DNA of 64,000 bases from Amycolatopsis nalaikhensis. Lineage in GTDB: Bacteria > Actinomycetota > Actinomycetes > Mycobacteriales > Pseudonocardiaceae. This document shows positions 53,628 through 64,000 of the stretch, in pieces. The stretch is taken from the NCBI RefSeq assembly GCF_030264295.1, contig NZ_CP127173.1, positions 689,501 to 753,500 on the forward strand, read 5' to 3'. A model generated the notes under the pieces. The model had not been told where the DNA came from. It made no database searches and saw nothing but the letters and a program-made list of their open reading frames with translations. Each line of letters begins with the position of its first letter. The stretch's first letter is position 1. Both the position numbers and the translations under genes were made by a program.

Positions 53628-53700
53628 GGGGCTATGGCGCAGCTGGTAGCGCACCTCACTGGCAGTGAGGGGGTCAGGGGTTCGAGTCCCCTTAGCTCCA
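53628..53700 (+). tRNA. tRNA-Ala (anticodon GGC)
   Basis: 73 nt forming a full cloverleaf: acceptor GGGGCTA/TAGCTCC (one G-T pair), D arm GCGC-AGCTGGTA-GCGC, anticodon stem CCTCA/TGAGG around CTGGCAG (GGC anticodon), T arm GGGG-TTCGAGT-CCCC, discriminator A. CCA is not encoded. It is the integration target of the element to the right. Confidence 0.95.
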
Positions 53701-53712
53701 CCGTGACGAAAC

Positions 53713-56330: not shown

Positions 56331-58343
56331 ATGTCAGCACCCGATGATTTACGAGGTCCCCGATCCCTCGTCAAGGGACGAACCAGAGCTCGGCAGAACC
56401 GCAAGTACAGGCGAGGCATGTGCGTCATCCTGGCCGCTGCTCTGACCATGGCCTTGGGTGGCGGCGCGGCCACAGCGTCGGCGGACACGCCGACGTCGAC
56501 GACGCCCCCATTTCACCAATGCCCGGCCGTCGGCTCGGCACCAGGTTGTGCCATCCTGCTGATCGTCAACGCGGACAGAACCGTTTCCGTGGCCGGCGAC
56601 AACGGAGTCGGCCCCTACGACGGAGCTGACGACAGCCTGATCGGCATCGTGAACCTGTCGTCGACCGCTGTCGACGCTGTCACCGTCACCGGGACCGGCA
56701 GCGATCTGTCCGGTTTCGACGGGGACGGGCTCTGCACTTACGTCGGCTGTTCGTATCCGGCTCCTACCGGCTACGAAGGGCCGGACAACACGTTCACCAC
56801 CGACCCGGCGATTCCGGACTCTGCGGAGGTGGACTTCACCACCCCGCTCGCCCCCGGCAGCAGTTCGTACTTCTCGCTGGAAGGCGCTTTGACCGCGGCG
56901 TCCCTCACCGCACGCCCAGGGCACCTCGCCAAGGACACCGACGGAGACGGGATCCCCGACAGCTGGGAGGACTCGCCTGGGCGCGACCTCGGCGGAGGAG
57001 TGTTCGACGGCGCGCTGCACTCCCTCGGTGCCAGCAGCCTGCACAAAGACATCTTCCTCCACATCGATAGCGAGAAAGGCGCCGAGCTCAGCGACAAGGC
57101 GACACAACTGCTCATCGACGCCTTCGCGAAAGCTCCAGTTCAGAACCAAGACCAGCAACCGGGCATCCGGTTGCATGTGATCAAGGGCACGACGACACTG
57201 TCCGAATCCGAGTCCGACGCCCTTCGCGCATCGAAAAACGATCCGGACTGGCTGAAGATCTTCGAACGCTATAAGGCGGACCCCGAACTGAACGCGTTCC
57301 ACTACGTCGTGTCCGCTCACTGGGACCGAGCCGACTACGCGGGCCAAACGGACAGAATTCCCGGGCAGTTCATCGTCGTGAACAACTGCGGAACGCGGCG
57401 AGTGCCCCGGTTCCTGTTCTTCGGCGGCGGTCTCCGCCACACGTGCGCTGCGTCGGACGCCGACCAAGCCGCCAACCTCATGCACGAACTGGGCCACAAC
57501 CTCGGTTTGCATCACGGCGGAGCCGGCCCCATGGCCACCGACGACCTGGAAGACCAGTTCAAACCAAACTACCTGTCGGTCATGAGTTACAACTTCTCCC
57601 ACAGCGGCGTACCCGGTATCGGCCTCACATACTCCCAATGGGGCCCCGCCAGCCTCCCCGTTCTCGACGAAAACTCGCTGTCGGAGCCCGCCGGTATCCA
57701 GAAACTGGACAATTCGATCCCTGCAGCGGCCCGCACATTTTACTACTGCCCGGCCGACGGAAAGATGCGGACCGTCAAGCTCGGGGCCGGGATCGACTGG
57801 AACTGCAAGTCCGGACGCGAGCCCAGCCCAGTTTCAGCGAACATCGACTTCCCAAGGTACGTCCGACAAAAGGATGGGTTCGCGTTCTTGAACACCAAAC
57901 GCACGCTGTCTCCCCACGAAGACTGGAGCACCCTGCTCTACGGCGGCGACCTGATCGGCCAGTCCTCGACCACCTACCCCGGGCCGATCGCGCTCGCGGA
58001 CCAGCGCGCTCTCGCCGAGCCGACACGAGAGGAACGGACCCGATTGGCCGCGGAGGTCAATCCGATCCCGACGCTCACGGCGAAGGTCACCGCACGAGAC
58101 CGGTCGTCAGTCACCCTCACCGTACCGGTATCGACCACAACAGACGGCGTCCTGACTTGGTCGCCGGTCGAGCCTGACGGATCACCGGGGCAGCCGGTTC
58201 CCGGTTCGACCGTCCGCGCCGGAAACGGGCAGACCTTCGAGGTGCGCATTCCGCTGAATGCCTTGACAGGCCGCCAAGGCGTAGTCGTGAACTTCACCAA
58301 TGACGACTGGACAGTCTCCGGCGTCACGCCCACAAGGCTCTGA
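56331..58343 (+). CDS. Secreted metzincin-type zinc metalloprotease
   Basis: A 670-aa protein. A basic n-region then a hydrophobic segment (CVILAAALTMALGGGAATASAD) forms the signal peptide; ATG 56418 is an alternative start giving a shorter n-region. A calcium-binding thrombospondin-type repeat (DTDGDGIPDSWED, about residue 205) precedes the catalytic part, with zinc motif HELGHNLGLHH and Met-turn LSVMSYNF. Cysteines suggest disulfides in the mature enzyme. The C-terminal 120 residues are an Ig-like/beta domain (VTLTVPVSTTTDGVLTWSPV). It is probably cargo of the integrated element. Target protein unknown. It is followed by a clear terminator. Confidence 0.85.
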   Translation: MSAPDDLRGPRSLVKGRTRARQNRKYRRGMCVILAAALTMALGGGAATASADTPTSTTPPFHQCPAVGSAPGCAILLIVNADRTVSVAGDNGVGPYDGADDSLIGIVNLSSTAVDAVTVTGTGSDLSGFDGDGLCTYVGCSYPAPTGYEGPDNTFTTDPAIPDSAEVDFTTPLAPGSSSYFSLEGALTAASLTARPGHLAKDTDGDGIPDSWEDSPGRDLGGGVFDGALHSLGASSLHKDIFLHIDSEKGAELSDKATQLLIDAFAKAPVQNQDQQPGIRLHVIKGTTTLSESESDALRASKNDPDWLKIFERYKADPELNAFHYVVSAHWDRADYAGQTDRIPGQFIVVNNCGTRRVPRFLFFGGGLRHTCAASDADQAANLMHELGHNLGLHHGGAGPMATDDLEDQFKPNYLSVMSYNFSHSGVPGIGLTYSQWGPASLPVLDENSLSEPAGIQKLDNSIPAAARTFYYCPADGKMRTVKLGAGIDWNCKSGREPSPVSANIDFPRYVRQKDGFAFLNTKRTLSPHEDWSTLLYGGDLIGQSSTTYPGPIALADQRALAEPTREERTRLAAEVNPIPTLTAKVTARDRSSVTLTVPVSTTTDGVLTWSPVEPDGSPGQPVPGSTVRAGNGQTFEVRIPLNALTGRQGVVVNFTNDDWTVSGVTPTRL

Positions 58344-58810: not shown

Positions 58811-60208
58811 TTGCGACTTCATGGCATGTTGTTGAGTCTGACGCGGGTCGGGGCGACACTCCAGGGCCTGGACAAAGCTGTCGCTGTCCTCGGCGCCGAC
58901 CCTGCCCGGGTCACCGGTCAGCTCACCCGGACTGCCCGCAGCGACGAGCTCGCCCGGCGGATCGAGCAGGTCGACGCAGCGCCCGGCTTGTTCGTGGTAC
59001 GTCAGGAACCGGCTTGGCTGGGTACCCGTCCGGCGCGTGATCAAGCTTTCGACGAGCTGGCGCGGACCCTTCGCCTGCTCGCGGACGCTGCGCGGACAGC
59101 CGGTGGCGTGCTGGTGCCGACTGCGGTCGGGACGAATCGGCAGCCTGCCGTTCTAGGTGGTGATACCCATGTCATCGAAGCCCTTTCGCCGGTAGAGCAG
59201 GAAGTTCTGACGAACCTGCTTCGTGACCAAGTGCCCACGCTCATCGCCATGGCTGGACGCGGTGTGACGACGGCCGGGGATCCCCGTGACCGTATCGGGT
59301 CACGCTGGCTGACATCCTCGCGAGCCCATCTCGCGGCTCGGTTCTTCGCCTCGACGGCGCCAGCACACCTGGAGCGGGTCAAGGCGGAGTTGCGGCGGCG
59401 GGACGGTGTGGCGCGGCTGGACCGGATGGACGTGGTGCCCGGCCAGAGCGCCGACGGCCGCTTGTTCGTGACGGTGCGGTGCCTGGACGCCGCCGCGAGC
59501 CTGGCCACAGCGCGCGCTCACACGATCGTCCTGGCAGCCATGGGATTACGTGCTCGCAGGATGGTGCGGGAAGGCCAACGTATCGGCCACTCGCCGCAGA
59601 AACGACTGGAGGAAAACCGTGCTCGCGCCATCGCGGACGGCCTCCGTGCCCGGTTGGTCCTCGAAGACCGGGACGGGCCACCTCGCCGCGGGCAGGCGCG
59701 GACTACCCGGCAGGTGGATGGGCGGACCGCGGTCCGCGAGTTGCTGCTGGACCTCTGCCGGGAATTCGCAAACCTCGGTGCCTCGGCCGACGAGCTGGCC
59801 CCGGTGCTCCTGCCGGTCGAGCTGCCACGGCTTGGACTGCGTCGCCTGGCGACCGAACACGACCTGCTGTCCACCTGGTCCGAGCGCGGCGAGTCCACTT
59901 TGGTCAACTCGGCGGCCGGTGAGCTGGGCAATCCCGCTGCAGGTGGTCGGCTTCTCGGTCACGCCAGGGAAACGGCGCCCGGACGGGTGTCCGTTGCGCT
60001 CGATATCTGGGAAGCCAACCTTTCCGGCGGCGCCCGCACCCGCAAACCGAAGAACGACGCCCCGAGACACGCCCGCGATCGGGCACGCGGATCGGCTCGT
60101 CGGGAACGCGACGGCCGGCCGGAGAAGCCTGCCCGGCGATCCCGTGGCGATCAGCGACGGGGCGGCAGTGGTGGACCCGGCAACAACGGGAGGTCGTCGC
60201 ATGACTGA
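58811..60208 (+). CDS. Possible amidoligase-like (GCS2/glutamine-synthetase-fold) protein
   Basis: About 465 aa. The start is uncertain: TTG 58811 has AGAGAAG upstream, ATG 58826 has none. No family is certain. The middle resembles the carboxylate-amine ligase (GCS2) group: AFDELARTLRLLADAARTAGGVLVPTAVG, then LLRDQVPTLIAMAGRGVTTAGDPRDRIGSRWL over about residues 145-177, and VTVRCLDAAASLATARAHTIVLAAM where GCS2 enzymes have E-R-D followed by a helix. The N-terminal Glu cluster of active enzymes is not visible. The C-terminal 60 residues are an Arg/Lys/Gly-rich tail suited to nucleic acid binding. It overlaps the next gene by 8 bp in a four-gene operon with a zinc-finger protein, a vWA protein and a kinase. 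Confidence 0.6.
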   Translation: MRLHGMLLSLTRVGATLQGLDKAVAVLGADPARVTGQLTRTARSDELARRIEQVDAAPGLFVVRQEPAWLGTRPARDQAFDELARTLRLLADAARTAGGVLVPTAVGTNRQPAVLGGDTHVIEALSPVEQEVLTNLLRDQVPTLIAMAGRGVTTAGDPRDRIGSRWLTSSRAHLAARFFASTAPAHLERVKAELRRRDGVARLDRMDVVPGQSADGRLFVTVRCLDAAASLATARAHTIVLAAMGLRARRMVREGQRIGHSPQKRLEENRARAIADGLRARLVLEDRDGPPRRGQARTTRQVDGRTAVRELLLDLCREFANLGASADELAPVLLPVELPRLGLRRLATEHDLLSTWSERGESTLVNSAAGELGNPAAGGRLLGHARETAPGRVSVALDIWEANLSGGARTRKPKNDAPRHARDRARGSARRERDGRPEKPARRSRGDQRRGGSGGPGNNGRSSHD

Positions 60209-61484
60209 GGCGTTGCCCGTGGACGTCGAGCTCGTCATGGACGTGCGGCATCTGCCGGTCGCGCCCACCGACGCGAAGGAGTACGGCGCCCTCTGGGCCA
60301 AGCTCGAACCCGCCCTCGTCGGCCGGAACCTCCGGGCCAAGAAGGTTCACCAGCTCACCGGCGCGGACGGATCGGTCAGGCTGGAGGTCGTGCGCATCGC
60401 AGACGGGCTGGGCGTAGTCTCCCCGGCGACCCGGTTCAGCATCGTCGCGGTCCGCGAATCCGCCCAGCTACGCTATCGGTGCCGGCAGTGCTCGGCCGAA
60501 GGGACTGCCTGCTACGGGCCGTTCCCTTGTTCGGTGCGCGACGGCGGGGCGGAACACCGCGTGTGTGACGCGCACGTGAGCATTCTGGACGGGTCACTGA
60601 CCGCGACCTGTGCCGAACACCGCCCGACATGCCGTGACTGCGGCCAGCCCGCCACGTTCCGATGCGCCGGGGAGGTGTGCCATCGGGAGCGCGCCTGGTG
60701 CGACGACCACCGCCGTCCGCATCCTCGGGACCGGGACGTCGACTTCTGTCCATCGTGCTACGACCGGGAGTTCCCGCGGTGCGAAGCGCCTGGCTGCCAG
60801 GACATCGGCACCGTCACCTGCGAGCACGCCTCTCCCGCCTACGAGCTGTGCAGAGTCCGGATGTGCACCCGCCATGCCCGGCGGTGGCAGGTGTTCGGTG
60901 GCGAACGGATGGGGCTCGGCCGGTGCTCCCGCCACGCGGGTCTCGGCGATCTGTCGGCTGAACAGCTGATGTTCCAGATCGTCGTCGGCGCATCGGCTCG
61001 CCGGCGCCGGCAGCGGCTTCCCAGCCTGCAGGGAATCGCGCATACGTTGCGCAACGGCGGTCACGCCCAGCTGGCCCTGGACTACCGGAAGATCCATAGC
61101 ATGCTGGGCCACCTGGCCGGCACGCTGGGCCGAGGTGGCCCGAGGGCGGCGATCGAAGCAATGGCGGAGATGCAGCGGCCTTGGGATCGGCAGCTGCAGG
61201 ACACCGGAGCGGCGGCGCAGGAAGGACTGCAGCTGGTCGAGAAGCTCAAACAGCTTGTCTTGGCCGAAGACCGGAAGTTCGGCCAGGCCATCGCCGCGGC
61301 GCTCTCTCTCGCCGAGTTCAAGCCCGCTGTCATGCGTAGTGGCCGGCCAACCCCGGTCCTGTTCGTCAATCTCGCGGATGACCTGCGGGGGCTGTTCATC
61401 GGCAAAGGCGGTATACGCAAGAAGGCCTATGCGGCTCGGTTGGGAGTCGAGATCGAGTTCGAAGGAGGGAGGCGCCGCCGATGA
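60201..61484 (+). CDS. Cys-rich zinc-finger and KH-like protein
   Basis: A 427-aa protein; GGGAGG precedes the ATG. The N-terminal 90 residues are alpha/beta (VDVELVMDVRHLPV, RLEVVRIADGLGVV). Residues 94-243 contain about eighteen Cys and many His in CxxC and CxxH pairs (RCRQCSAEG, CRDCGQPATFRC, CPSCYDREFPRCEAPGC, CTRH), resembling B-box/treble-clef fingers. A helical stretch (250-375) follows, and the end has the KH-type loop VNLADDLRGLFIGKGGIRKKAYAARL (GKGG at residues 401-404), suggesting RNA or DNA binding. It may be an adaptor or an RNA sensor. It overlaps both neighbours (8 and 4 bp). Confidence 0.7.
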   Translation: MTEALPVDVELVMDVRHLPVAPTDAKEYGALWAKLEPALVGRNLRAKKVHQLTGADGSVRLEVVRIADGLGVVSPATRFSIVAVRESAQLRYRCRQCSAEGTACYGPFPCSVRDGGAEHRVCDAHVSILDGSLTATCAEHRPTCRDCGQPATFRCAGEVCHRERAWCDDHRRPHPRDRDVDFCPSCYDREFPRCEAPGCQDIGTVTCEHASPAYELCRVRMCTRHARRWQVFGGERMGLGRCSRHAGLGDLSAEQLMFQIVVGASARRRRQRLPSLQGIAHTLRNGGHAQLALDYRKIHSMLGHLAGTLGRGGPRAAIEAMAEMQRPWDRQLQDTGAAAQEGLQLVEKLKQLVLAEDRKFGQAIAAALSLAEFKPAVMRSGRPTPVLFVNLADDLRGLFIGKGGIRKKAYAARLGVEIEFEGGRRRR

Positions 61485-63316
61485 GCACGCGTATGGCGGA
61501 CTCCGCCGCACACCGCCTGGCTCCGGTGCCGCCTGGCGGGCCGATCGGCGGACACTCCGTCGCCGTGCCCCGGGGCACCGCGGGCACCGGACCTTGCGTC
61601 TTCACCGTACGCTCCGCCGAAGGTGAATTAGCCAGCGCGGTACGGGCCGTTCCGCTGGCTGAAGTTCCGTCCGGCGTCGTGGCAATCGGCGAGGATCTGG
61701 TCGGCGAATGGGACATCGACGTCGATCAGGCCGAGTGGACCCTGACCCGCGTCGACCCGGTGCCGATCGGAACCCTGACGCTCGAGTTGCCCACCGAGCG
61801 CGAGCCGGATGCCTCGGCGCGGGAGATCGCCGGAGCCGGGCTGGTTGACGAGTTGTTGTGGGTCCCTGCCGACGGCTCGGACTGCTGGCTCACCGTCGGT
61901 GGGGTACCGCATCGCGTCCGCAACATCGACGTCGGCGGGCGCACCGGGATCGTCGCCGTGATCACCGGGAATACCGCGATCGAGCTGTACGCCTCAGCGG
62001 TCCGGGCTGGCGTGGACATCGTCATCCTGGCCGACTGCAGCGGATCGATGCAGATCGACGACCTTCCCGCAGGCGGGGAAAGCCGCCGGCTGACGCCTGG
62101 CGGGGCACGCTGGCTCACCCGGATGGAGGCACTTCAGCAGGCACTCCATGACCTCCTGCGGATGCGCCTGCAGATCTCTGGCAGAATCTCCCGGCTGGCC
62201 CTGCTTGAGTTCAACCACCAGACGCGGCAACGGTTTCCGCGCGACGGCGGAATGGCACAACTCGACGCCGGGTCCACCAGCCACCAAATCGACGAGTTTC
62301 GCCACGGCGTCGCGCTGCTGCGCCCGTTCGGCACCACCGACATCGGCAACGCCCTGCACGAAGCGGCCAACCTGCTCTACCAGCACGGGCACGCCGGCAA
62401 CGACAAACTCATCGTGCTCGTCAGCGACGGCGCGGACTGGTCGCCCAAGGGCGAGAAGGGCAGCGGCGAGGTCGTCTACGCAGTGCAAGAACCGGTGAGC
62501 CTGATGGCTCACCTGCACCGGGACATGGGCATCCGGCTGCACGCCATCGGCATCGGCACGGCGGAGCTGTTCCACCGGCGAGGCGGCTGGGAGCCCAACG
62601 CGGCCTCGGTCCCCAACCACACCCTCCTGGCGGAGCTGGTCAAAGTCGGAGGCGGTGATCCGGCTACCGTCGGTGGCCTGGACGTGCTCGAGGACTACTT
62701 CTCCGGCCTGGCAGCCGGGATGGTCCACCGGATCCGTGACCGGCTCACCGAACGACGGGCACCCGGCCCGCTGCCGGACCACACCCGCGCCGCCCTGGCC
62801 CGGCTGACCGCCTCGGCAGGCCAGGACCACGGGGCGCTCCGCACCGAACTGCGCGGTCAGATCATCGAACTGGTCGGCCGGTGCAGCAACGAGAGCCAAC
62901 GTGCGCTTGGGGGCCCGATCTGGGACGTCCAGCGGGTGGACGCCCTGTGCCAGCGCCACATGATCGCGTCCACAAGCACCGACGACGCGCTGACGCGCTT
63001 CCTCGCCACCGCGGCGCGGACGCTGCGGCCGAACGCACTGGCGGACGATATCGGCGAGGTCACGGCCGCGTGGTGTGGCACGCTGGACCGGCTCGAGTCG
63101 ATGTCCCGCCACCAGGGCCCGGTCGCGCCGCGATTCGGCCTCGAATTCAGCGTCCGGGCGGACACACCGGCCGAGGTCCACCTGCACGTGATGGACCGGC
63201 TGCGCGACGAGTTGACGCAGCTGCACGTCCGGCTCGGGAAACTGCCGGACCACGAACCCGTCTCCCCCCGGCAAGCAAACCCGGTGTCGTCGGCCGGCTT
63301 CTTCTACCAGGACTGA
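61481..63316 (+). CDS. von Willebrand factor A domain protein
   Basis: A 611-aa protein starting at ATG overlapping the preceding stop (ATGA). Residues 35-175 are beta-rich (VFTVRSAEGELASAVRAVP, WTLTRVDPVPIGTLTLELP, GVPHRVRNIDVGGRTGIVAVI) and may be a double-psi-barrel of the CDC48-N kind; this is tentative. The vWA domain has a complete metal site (DCSGSM at 185-190, the Thr in FGTTDIGNAL, the Asp in VLVSDGADW). The C-terminal 200 residues are helical with no recognised family. vWA proteins act as scaffolds for kinases and AAA+ or ligase partners in bacterial conflict and stress systems, which fits its place before a kinase. Confidence 0.8.
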   Translation: MSTRMADSAAHRLAPVPPGGPIGGHSVAVPRGTAGTGPCVFTVRSAEGELASAVRAVPLAEVPSGVVAIGEDLVGEWDIDVDQAEWTLTRVDPVPIGTLTLELPTEREPDASAREIAGAGLVDELLWVPADGSDCWLTVGGVPHRVRNIDVGGRTGIVAVITGNTAIELYASAVRAGVDIVILADCSGSMQIDDLPAGGESRRLTPGGARWLTRMEALQQALHDLLRMRLQISGRISRLALLEFNHQTRQRFPRDGGMAQLDAGSTSHQIDEFRHGVALLRPFGTTDIGNALHEAANLLYQHGHAGNDKLIVLVSDGADWSPKGEKGSGEVVYAVQEPVSLMAHLHRDMGIRLHAIGIGTAELFHRRGGWEPNAASVPNHTLLAELVKVGGGDPATVGGLDVLEDYFSGLAAGMVHRIRDRLTERRAPGPLPDHTRAALARLTASAGQDHGALRTELRGQIIELVGRCSNESQRALGGPIWDVQRVDALCQRHMIASTSTDDALTRFLATAARTLRPNALADDIGEVTAAWCGTLDRLESMSRHQGPVAPRFGLEFSVRADTPAEVHLHVMDRLRDELTQLHVRLGKLPDHEPVSPRQANPVSSAGFFYQD

Positions 63317-63319
63317 CAC

Positions 63320-64000
63320 GTGGCGGAACCGCAGAGCGGTTATCGCGTCGGCGATGACGACAAGCCGGACCTCTACGAGCTGAGACGCCCGGCGCGCGTC
63401 GGCGGCGAAGGCGAGGTATGGCAGGCGGCGACGATCCGCCAGGACGGAATCTCCGACCACCTCTGGGCGGTCAAGATCCTGCACGCCAAGCACCTCCTCG
63501 GGACTGGCGACGAGACGATGAACTCGGCGTTGCGGCACTGGCATGACCGGTACCGCGAAGCCCAGCACGAGACCGCGCAGCTGCAGGACGACGTTCCCGG
63601 CATCGTCGGACCAGCCCGGGTCTTCCCCGGCGACGCACCGCACTCCCCCGGCGAGCCGGGCCACGGCCGGTGTCTCTACGTGGTTTCCCGCTGGATCGAC
63701 GGGGACAACCTCGAAGAGTGGCGGAGCCGGTGTCCCCGCACGTTCGACGACATCTGCGACGTGCTGACCGACCTGGCTTCCATCGTGGATGGCCTGGCCG
63801 AGCGGCCCCAACCGGTCCTACACCGGGACATTTCGCCGGACAACGTGATGGTGCGACCGGACGGGCAGGTGCGGCTGATCGACTTCACGTTCGTCCGCCC
63901 GCCGGACAGCTCGGCCGGCACAGCCGCAGTACTTAAGCGGGGCTACACCGCTCCCGAGGCCCGCAACGCTCAGGCCGGGCTGCCGTCCGACCGCTACTCC
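63320..64000 (+). CDS. Serine/threonine protein kinase (3' partial)
   Basis: Starts at GTG 4 bp after the vWA stop; 227 codons are in the window and the frame is open at its end. Hanks-type kinase: Gly-rich loop RVGGEGEVWQA, ATP lysine in WAVKILHAK, catalytic loop LHRDISPDNVMV, metal loop IDFTF (Thr replaces Gly of DFG) and the substrate loop GYTAPEARNAQ. An insertion follows the lysine (ALRHWHDRYREAQHETAQLQDD, residues 68-89). The remaining C-terminal part may hold a sensor or membrane domain but is outside the window. It is the signalling member of the operon. Confidence 0.9.
   Translation, partial: MAEPQSGYRVGDDDKPDLYELRRPARVGGEGEVWQAATIRQDGISDHLWAVKILHAKHLLGTGDETMNSALRHWHDRYREAQHETAQLQDDVPGIVGPARVFPGDAPHSPGEPGHGRCLYVVSRWIDGDNLEEWRSRCPRTFDDICDVLTDLASIVDGLAERPQPVLHRDISPDNVMVRPDGQVRLIDFTFVRPPDSSAGTAAVLKRGYTAPEARNAQAGLPSDRYS

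Follow-up and report, generated by a model that had tools for sequence, protein, structure and literature searches.

What does a gene cluster do that joins an amidoligase-like protein, a Cys/His-rich protein with a KH domain, a vWA protein and a Ser/Thr kinase? The question is raised by the right-hand end of a stretch of Amycolatopsis nalaikhensis DNA, bases 689501-753500 of a 10.67-Mb single-contig genome. We call this whole stretch of 64,000 nucleotides the window, and "window-equivalent" positions extend its numbering past 64000. The first three proteins (a probable pseudo-amidoligase, a Cys/His-KH adaptor and a vWA protein) form a core that stays together from genome to genome, usually with an intact-looking kinase. 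Judged by inference from sequence and predicted structure, the cluster would be an RNA- or ribosome-sensing, phosphorylation-gated conflict or stress module with exchangeable outputs, a reading we favour tentatively and at a little under even chances. The genes are as follows.

58826..60208, + strand: protein 1, GCS2/YbdK fold, predicted pseudo-amidoligase with an R/G-rich C-terminal tail (AlphaFold2 (AF2) model, Foldseek, VIA, TIGR02050)
60201..61484, + strand: protein 2, Cys/His-KH adaptor; Cdc48/p97-N-like residues 7-87 (weak), Cys/His cluster 94-245, KH ~361-420
61481..63316, + strand: protein 3, vWA, metal site D185 S187 S189 T286 D316, N-terminal region of ~175 residues (PF00092, E 2.9e-7)
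63320..64000, + strand: protein 4, Ser/Thr kinase, the part inside the window of an open reading frame (ORF) that runs to 64855 (PF00069, E 5.4e-12)
window-equivalent 65173-65901: DUF7019 (NF040893, E 1.1e-36; PF22880, E 2.2e-7)

The tightly packed four-gene set is present in the window as the initial annotation had described it: four codirectional ORFs spaced -8/-4/+3, that is, with an 8-bp overlap, a 4-bp overlap and a 3-bp gap. That annotation began gene 1 at a TTG at 58811. We place the start at the ATG at 58826 instead, since it is from this codon that the four nearest relatives share the conserved N-terminus ML.SLTR. The kinase ORF passes the window edge, and a phosphatase, AAA+ or protease partner had been anticipated beyond it. 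None lies inside the operon; the kinase is followed instead by a fifth conserved gene, DUF7019/SAVMC3_10250.

The core is conserved as a unit. Fourteen loci were read, comprising every strong match, and all were located via the gene for the adaptor. Five belong to the window's family: the window itself, L011 (= L015, Saccharothrix), L012 (= L019, Goodfellowiella), L013, and L014 (Lentzea). The others are L017, L018 and L020 (Streptomyces), L029, L030 and L031 (genus of S. caeruleatus, G688), L021 (Nonomuraea), and L036 and L037 (family of Nonomuraea cavernae, G689). A peptide-pattern scan of 84,980 species genomes gave seven of these loci, three of them among the four others of the window's family, and samples of the G688 genus and the G689 family gave five more. 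In all 14 loci, which come from at least three families, the genes for the GCS-like, Cys/His-KH and vWA proteins adjoin one another in this order. Pairwise protein distances correlate at r 0.95-0.97 for the three core proteins and 0.94-0.97 for four proteins, uncorrected for genome relatedness. Chance is excluded as the source of the core association because the order is kept in all 14 loci and the distances of the three proteins correlate. Junctions within the core are tight as well, with 4-bp overlaps at 23 of the 26 tabulated (13 loci; L012 was left out).

The remaining genes are less constant. A kinase lies downstream of the core in 11 of the 14 loci (it is missing from L030, L031 and L037), and DUF7019 is found in five, which are the five of the window's family; there all five genes occur in the same order. 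Copies are scarce. They were found in 5/297 genomes of the window's family, its own genome counted, in 5/295 of the S. caeruleatus genus (two already known), in 4/200 of the Nonomuraea cavernae family (one weak, one the sample centre) and in 2/394 of a class-level sample, these being the window's own genome and one weak match. The 20 other congeners listed in the family search had no match. Two weak adaptor matches, G338 (E 2.4e-4) and G1136 (E 8.4e-4), were left out of the locus set; no GCS-like, vWA or kinase match was found beside them, on loci of 2.0 and 3.3 kb that are too short to exclude one. The gene set thus occurs sporadically in soil actinobacteria. Pfam is silent on two of the three core proteins in the window member, and annotation pipelines are therefore likely to miss them. 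The three-gene core itself offers a simple rule for finding more copies.

Protein 1 was described in the initial annotation as amidoligase-like, a possible peptide-bond-forming enzyme that would add a tagging part to the system. The fold stands. The AF2 model (predicted local distance difference test, pLDDT, 75; predicted TM-score, pTM, 0.75) has YbdK-type structures as its best Foldseek matches (1tt4/1r8g, E 7e-9 to 4e-8), and VIA aligns it with 1r8g_A at Z 24.5 over 293 residues with a root-mean-square deviation (rmsd) of 3.4; plant GCL, Dop and PafA come next. TIGR02050, the NCBIfam YbdK model, matches 13 of the 14 members (best E 1.2e-7). The window member reaches an E of only 0.25, at 10.7 bits vs a curated cut-off of 176.4. 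Pfam finds nothing in the window's protein 1 and no GCS family in any of the 14 members, and hhalign gave no significant match between protein 1 and its own-genome homologues.

The enzymatic claim fares differently. The comparison set for protein 1 was E. coli YbdK plus three different YbdK-family proteins encoded in its own genome (L040 and L041 being the same in sequence and L039 giving none). The last three positions of the YbdK GIELE motif (ExE) read [DTAS][KR][ATG] in all 14 members. VEVR has become V[TVLS][VIL][RS], its Glu replaced by T, V, L or S, again in 14/14, and the Glu of ESMLELAT/QVETAT is retained in none. We take these residues to be catalytic, holding metal and ATP in the superfamily. 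What persists of YbdK is one His of HVHVG and the C-terminal NR.RA...G region. Protein 1 is probably a pseudo-amidoligase, since the Glu residues shared by YbdK and the own-genome homologues are gone in all 14 members. Their loss speaks against tagging, and it ruled out an active tagging enzyme as our principal interpretation.

The C-terminal tail of protein 1 falls below pLDDT 50 from residue 404. Its Arg+Gly fraction is at least 0.42 in 11 of the 14 members, a figure that includes two tails shorter than 20 residues and no control for high G+C. Five genes of the YbdK family score above the cut-off in the A. nalaikhensis genome, and two of these are direct neighbours (7471044-7473514). Nine weak matches to protein 1 span profile positions 213-339 only and were taken for canonical GCS2 genes.

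Protein 2 carries 24 Cys and His residues that are invariant in 14/14 members and lie between residues 94 and 245. One more Cys is common to the other 13 members and lost in the window member. From these numbers, the 24 residues would be enough for about six zinc ions. The C-terminal domain is a KH domain, as had been suspected from a GKGG loop. Pfam KH_1 matches nine of the 14 members, with a best E of 1.9e-4, but not the window's own; nine of the ten weak matches in a PDB profile search are KH proteins, and the AF2 model (pLDDT 79, pTM 0.49) shows the elements H361 E369 E386 H393 H402 E417, the alpha-beta-beta-alpha-alpha-beta order of a type-II KH domain. VIA matches for this region include ERA (1ega, Z 7.2), NusA (2cxc, Z 7.4) and two chains at Z 8.3-8.4 that we presume to be Era-type. 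The fold match alone is indecisive because SirA, which is not known as a KH protein, scores 8.1 in the same comparison.

The adaptor N-terminus provides a lead. In the model, residues 7-87 look like the latter half of the p97/Cdc48 N-domain (Z ~7, rmsd ~2.9, 75 residues aligned), at a score below the tool's caution line, and the best Foldseek E value for the whole adaptor model is 0.042. A search of the own genome with PF02933 (CDC48_2) returned four sub-cut-off matches, all outside the operon.

The metal site D-S-S-T-D of the vWA protein, noticed as intact in the window, is kept in 14/14 members, and VWA and VWA_2 are matched in every member. A profile of its N-terminal region found one PDB chain only, at E 1.5. 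By eye we had suspected a Cdc48-N-like region here as well; Pfam and PDB profile searches did not support it and we make no claim. Neither the adaptor N-terminus nor its KH region gave a significant hhalign match to the vWA N-terminus.

The replacement of DFG by DFT in the window's kinase also holds more widely, as D[FIL]T in 11/11 kinases. The catalytic Lys, the catalytic Asp and the D of DFG are retained in all 11; the Arg of HRD is Gly in two members and Gln in one. The C-terminal half looks propeller-like by eye. Among defence kinases, PD-T4-6 (E 8e-21) and MAD6 (E 1.2e-17) match in the kinase domain. These matches reflect general kinase similarity, because the MAD6 score of 63.7 lies under its cut-off of 460 and NCBIfam's top hit is to the kinase portion of the lanthionine synthetase LanL (E 6.5e-21). 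No paper found by our literature search names DUF7019.

Upstream of the core lies a slot whose content varies between loci. In L017, L020 and L029 it is filled by a gene for an NYN/PIN-like protein with an FHA domain, directly upstream at 65-198 bp. FHA was matched in 3/3 of these genes (best E 1.7e-5) and PF11977, the profile of Zc3h12a-like NYN RNases, in one (E 0.011). At L021, which reaches a contig end, only the FHA half is present (L021:59-1114), behind a different N-terminus that is cytochrome P450-like by eye. FHA domains read phosphothreonine, so an RNase-like partner of this kind would tie to the kinase. FHA genes stand beside kinase-bearing copies only, 4/11 vs 0/3, numbers too few to test. 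Elsewhere the slot holds RtcB (Saccharothrix, 112 bp upstream; PF01139, E 4.6e-121), an EACC1-type caspase (Goodfellowiella, 96 bp upstream; NF047832, E 4.7e-48), a divergent pair at L013 consisting of a 182-residue protein without a family and an NTPase (NPHP3_N, E 1.5e-9; NACHT, E 1.7e-5), or a divergent P-loop gene (L018). The three kinase-less loci share an upstream gene, 3-24 bp off, whose product, judged by eye, has hydrophobic helices at its end; the one product tested had no family match above the cut-off.

The wider setting of the window's copy supports the accessory location that had been proposed for it. A tRNA-Ala at 53628-53702 is followed by an integrase gene, whose PF00589 match (E 6.7e-5) stays below the cut-off. 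Between the integrase and the operon, at 56331-58343, lies the gene of a putative secreted protein that resembles Peptidase M66 weakly (E 0.0084, again below the cut-off). Beyond the operon lie a gene with weak, sub-cut-off similarity to Mrr (E 7.5e-4), a gene for an OLD/AriA-like ATPase and a HEPN_AbiV gene (E 2.1e-38); the ATPase and the adjoining AbiV gene are divergently placed at window-equivalent 68004-70926. The 3' part of the tRNA-Ala recurs as a 45-bp exact inverted copy at window-equivalent 75622-75666, 22 kb off and near transposase-like genes (by eye). For a simple island one would expect the copy to be direct rather than inverted. Two further neighbourhoods deserve mention: a GmrSD-type restriction gene split over two ORFs lies downstream of the Streptomyces-type copy at L029 (L029:14991-16853), and the Lentzea copy is followed at L014:14171-17799 by a kinase-like gene (by eye, without a Pfam match), an uncharacterised gene and a second vWA gene.

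There is a plausible way in which these parts could work together. The adaptor with its KH and zinc parts would bind nucleic acid or a ribonucleoprotein, as would protein 1 through its basic tail. The vWA protein, through its metal site, and the pseudo-amidoligase would form a scaffold that keeps the kinase off. Once foreign or damaged RNA is bound, the kinase would be released, and the resulting phosphate mark would recruit or activate a partner from the variable slot. In Streptomyces this partner would be the NYN/PIN-like RNase with its FHA domain; elsewhere it may be the caspase, the NTPase, RtcB or a membrane protein. For the window's copy, the kinase itself and DUF7019 would serve as the output. 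The likely end would be growth arrest or RNA cleavage that stops a phage, with repair less likely. The role in conflict raised by the initial annotation is supported as a possibility.

Several observations weigh against this conflict or stress module. First, three loci lack the kinase altogether, and the window's own kinase looks frameshifted near its end, in a copy that may be damaged or mis-sequenced: the last 115-121 kinase residues of four relatives match another frame, window-equivalent 64774-65136 (L004:9275-9637). Second, four of the 14 KH domains (L014, L020, L031 and L036) lack the G..G loop, which the other ten keep. Third, the window's copy adjoins no nuclease, its upstream neighbour being the secreted M66-like protein. 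RtcB and the caspase, each at one of the 14 loci, may be chance neighbours; the survey of neighbours was unsystematic and had no background rate for defence genes. Fourth, PADLOC recognises none of proteins 1, 2 and 3 and DUF7019; RtcB, AbiV, the L013 NTPase and the two tested genes that follow the L014 copy were likewise without a match. Finally, protein 2 was absent from phage and plasmid records, protein 3 from plasmids, and proteins 1 and 2 from viral contigs in a peptide-pattern search. A phage or plasmid origin, considered as a separate idea, is unsupported, with no matches in the phage, plasmid or viral-contig searches for the proteins tried.

The same genes could instead form a stress or developmental regulator, a kinase switch over RNA turnover or translation in differentiating actinobacteria and not an immune system. 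We regard this as possible, if somewhat unlikely. Its expected anatomy is identical to that of a conflict module. The species-wide pattern scan gave actinobacterial records only (the other genome searches lay inside Actinomycetota), all 14 hosts have large genomes (7.6-10.7 Mb, hosts only, without a background size), and SbcCD-like or metabolic genes, assigned by eye, flank L018, L020 and L037. However, a regulator sits poorly with the lack of a match in the 20 other listed congeners, with a partner slot that varies, and with defence-type genes near the window's copy and near L029, L012 and L013.

It is much less probable that protein 1 is an active amidoligase which the adaptor directs to a target, where it would attach a residue or small protein as in Pup-like tagging. 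The kinship of its fold to Dop and PafA after YbdK invites this idea, as do H115 (in 14/14 members), R218 (in 13/14), an Asp at the first Glu of ExE in five members and, in the window, L017 and L018, a Glu that misses its second-motif column by one. But the Glu residues of ExE and VEVR are replaced in every member and the second motif has no conserved Glu, and no Pup-like partner, proteasome gene or protease was recognised in the operon, for which no dedicated search was made. Least probable of all is an RNA-repair operon whose core recognises broken RNA for a ligase such as RtcB to seal: RtcB directly upstream in Saccharothrix, the KH domain and a chance-level Hen1 match (E 0.046) in two protein 1 members fit it, but RtcB stands at one locus of 14, neither RtcA nor Pnkp was among the neighbours given to the family search, and an NYN-like RNase-FHA or a caspase occupies the slot at other loci.

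If the conflict or stress module is right, bacterial immunity would have a link between RNA sensing and phospho-signalling, and an amidoligase fold would have been turned to non-catalytic use. The FHA-RNase version opens this model to a direct biochemical test.

How does the cluster compare with known systems? Protein 1 resembles the YbdK/GCS2 carboxylate-amine ligases (TIGR02050; 1r8g) in fold over 293 residues, in the NR.RA...G region and in one His of HVHVG. It differs from them in lacking the shared Glu residues, in its R/G-rich tail and in its operon with KH, vWA and kinase genes. The gene set as a whole is undescribed in the literature searched, including the portions available to us of PMC7159879, PMC8195603, PMC12839542 and PMC11090510; some amidoligase and Ter-system work lies outside that coverage.

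The initial annotation saw a resemblance to bacterial ternary vWA-kinase systems. TerY-P triads and their OB-fold variants combine vWA, Ser/Thr kinase and PP2C in a proposed phosphorylation switch with a defence context (PMC11090510), and an actinobacterial kinase/PP2C/vWA set occurs beside GAP1-N2 systems (PMC7159879). Both share with the cluster a vWA protein and a Ser/Thr kinase with a beta-rich, zinc or nucleic-acid-binding module. Unlike these systems, the cluster has its zinc module in a separate KH protein, a pseudo-amidoligase as an extra and no PP2C. No PP2C is found among the window's five proteins, and no gene beyond those described is common to the loci. We rejected TerY-P membership on the absence of this partner.

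The vWA-MoxR ternary systems, which occur in actinobacteria, build on a vWA scaffold, and caspases, kinases, FHA and RNA-binding domains are among their effectors (PMC7159879 and PMC8195603). All of these features recall the cluster, but its operon holds no MoxR AAA+, VMAP or iSTAND. No P-loop ORF lies inside the conserved operon of the 14 loci (P-loop genes occur outside it only), and with the AAA+/P-loop partner missing from the operon this membership was rejected too. The word "amidoligase" is absent from the main texts of these two papers. We infer that the cluster works like the TerY-P or vWA conflict modules with the defining partners of neither.

An analogy, and no more than an analogy, can be drawn with human ZAP-TRIM25-KHNYN antiviral RNA decay, in which a zinc-finger RNA sensor, a KH domain and an NYN endonuclease act together (PMC6615859). 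There is no homology of the whole systems, and the bacterial RNase-like partner bears FHA, not KH. Pressed further, the comparison yields a bolder and distinctly doubtful proposal, in which the cluster would be RNA-triggered immunity of a new class: with a vWA protein as their scaffold, the Cys/His-KH sensor and the dead amidoligase would restrain a D[FIL]T kinase, foreign RNA would free it, and its phosphate mark would recruit FHA-borne RNases or exchangeable killers, a bacterial counterpart to ZAP-KHNYN in logic.

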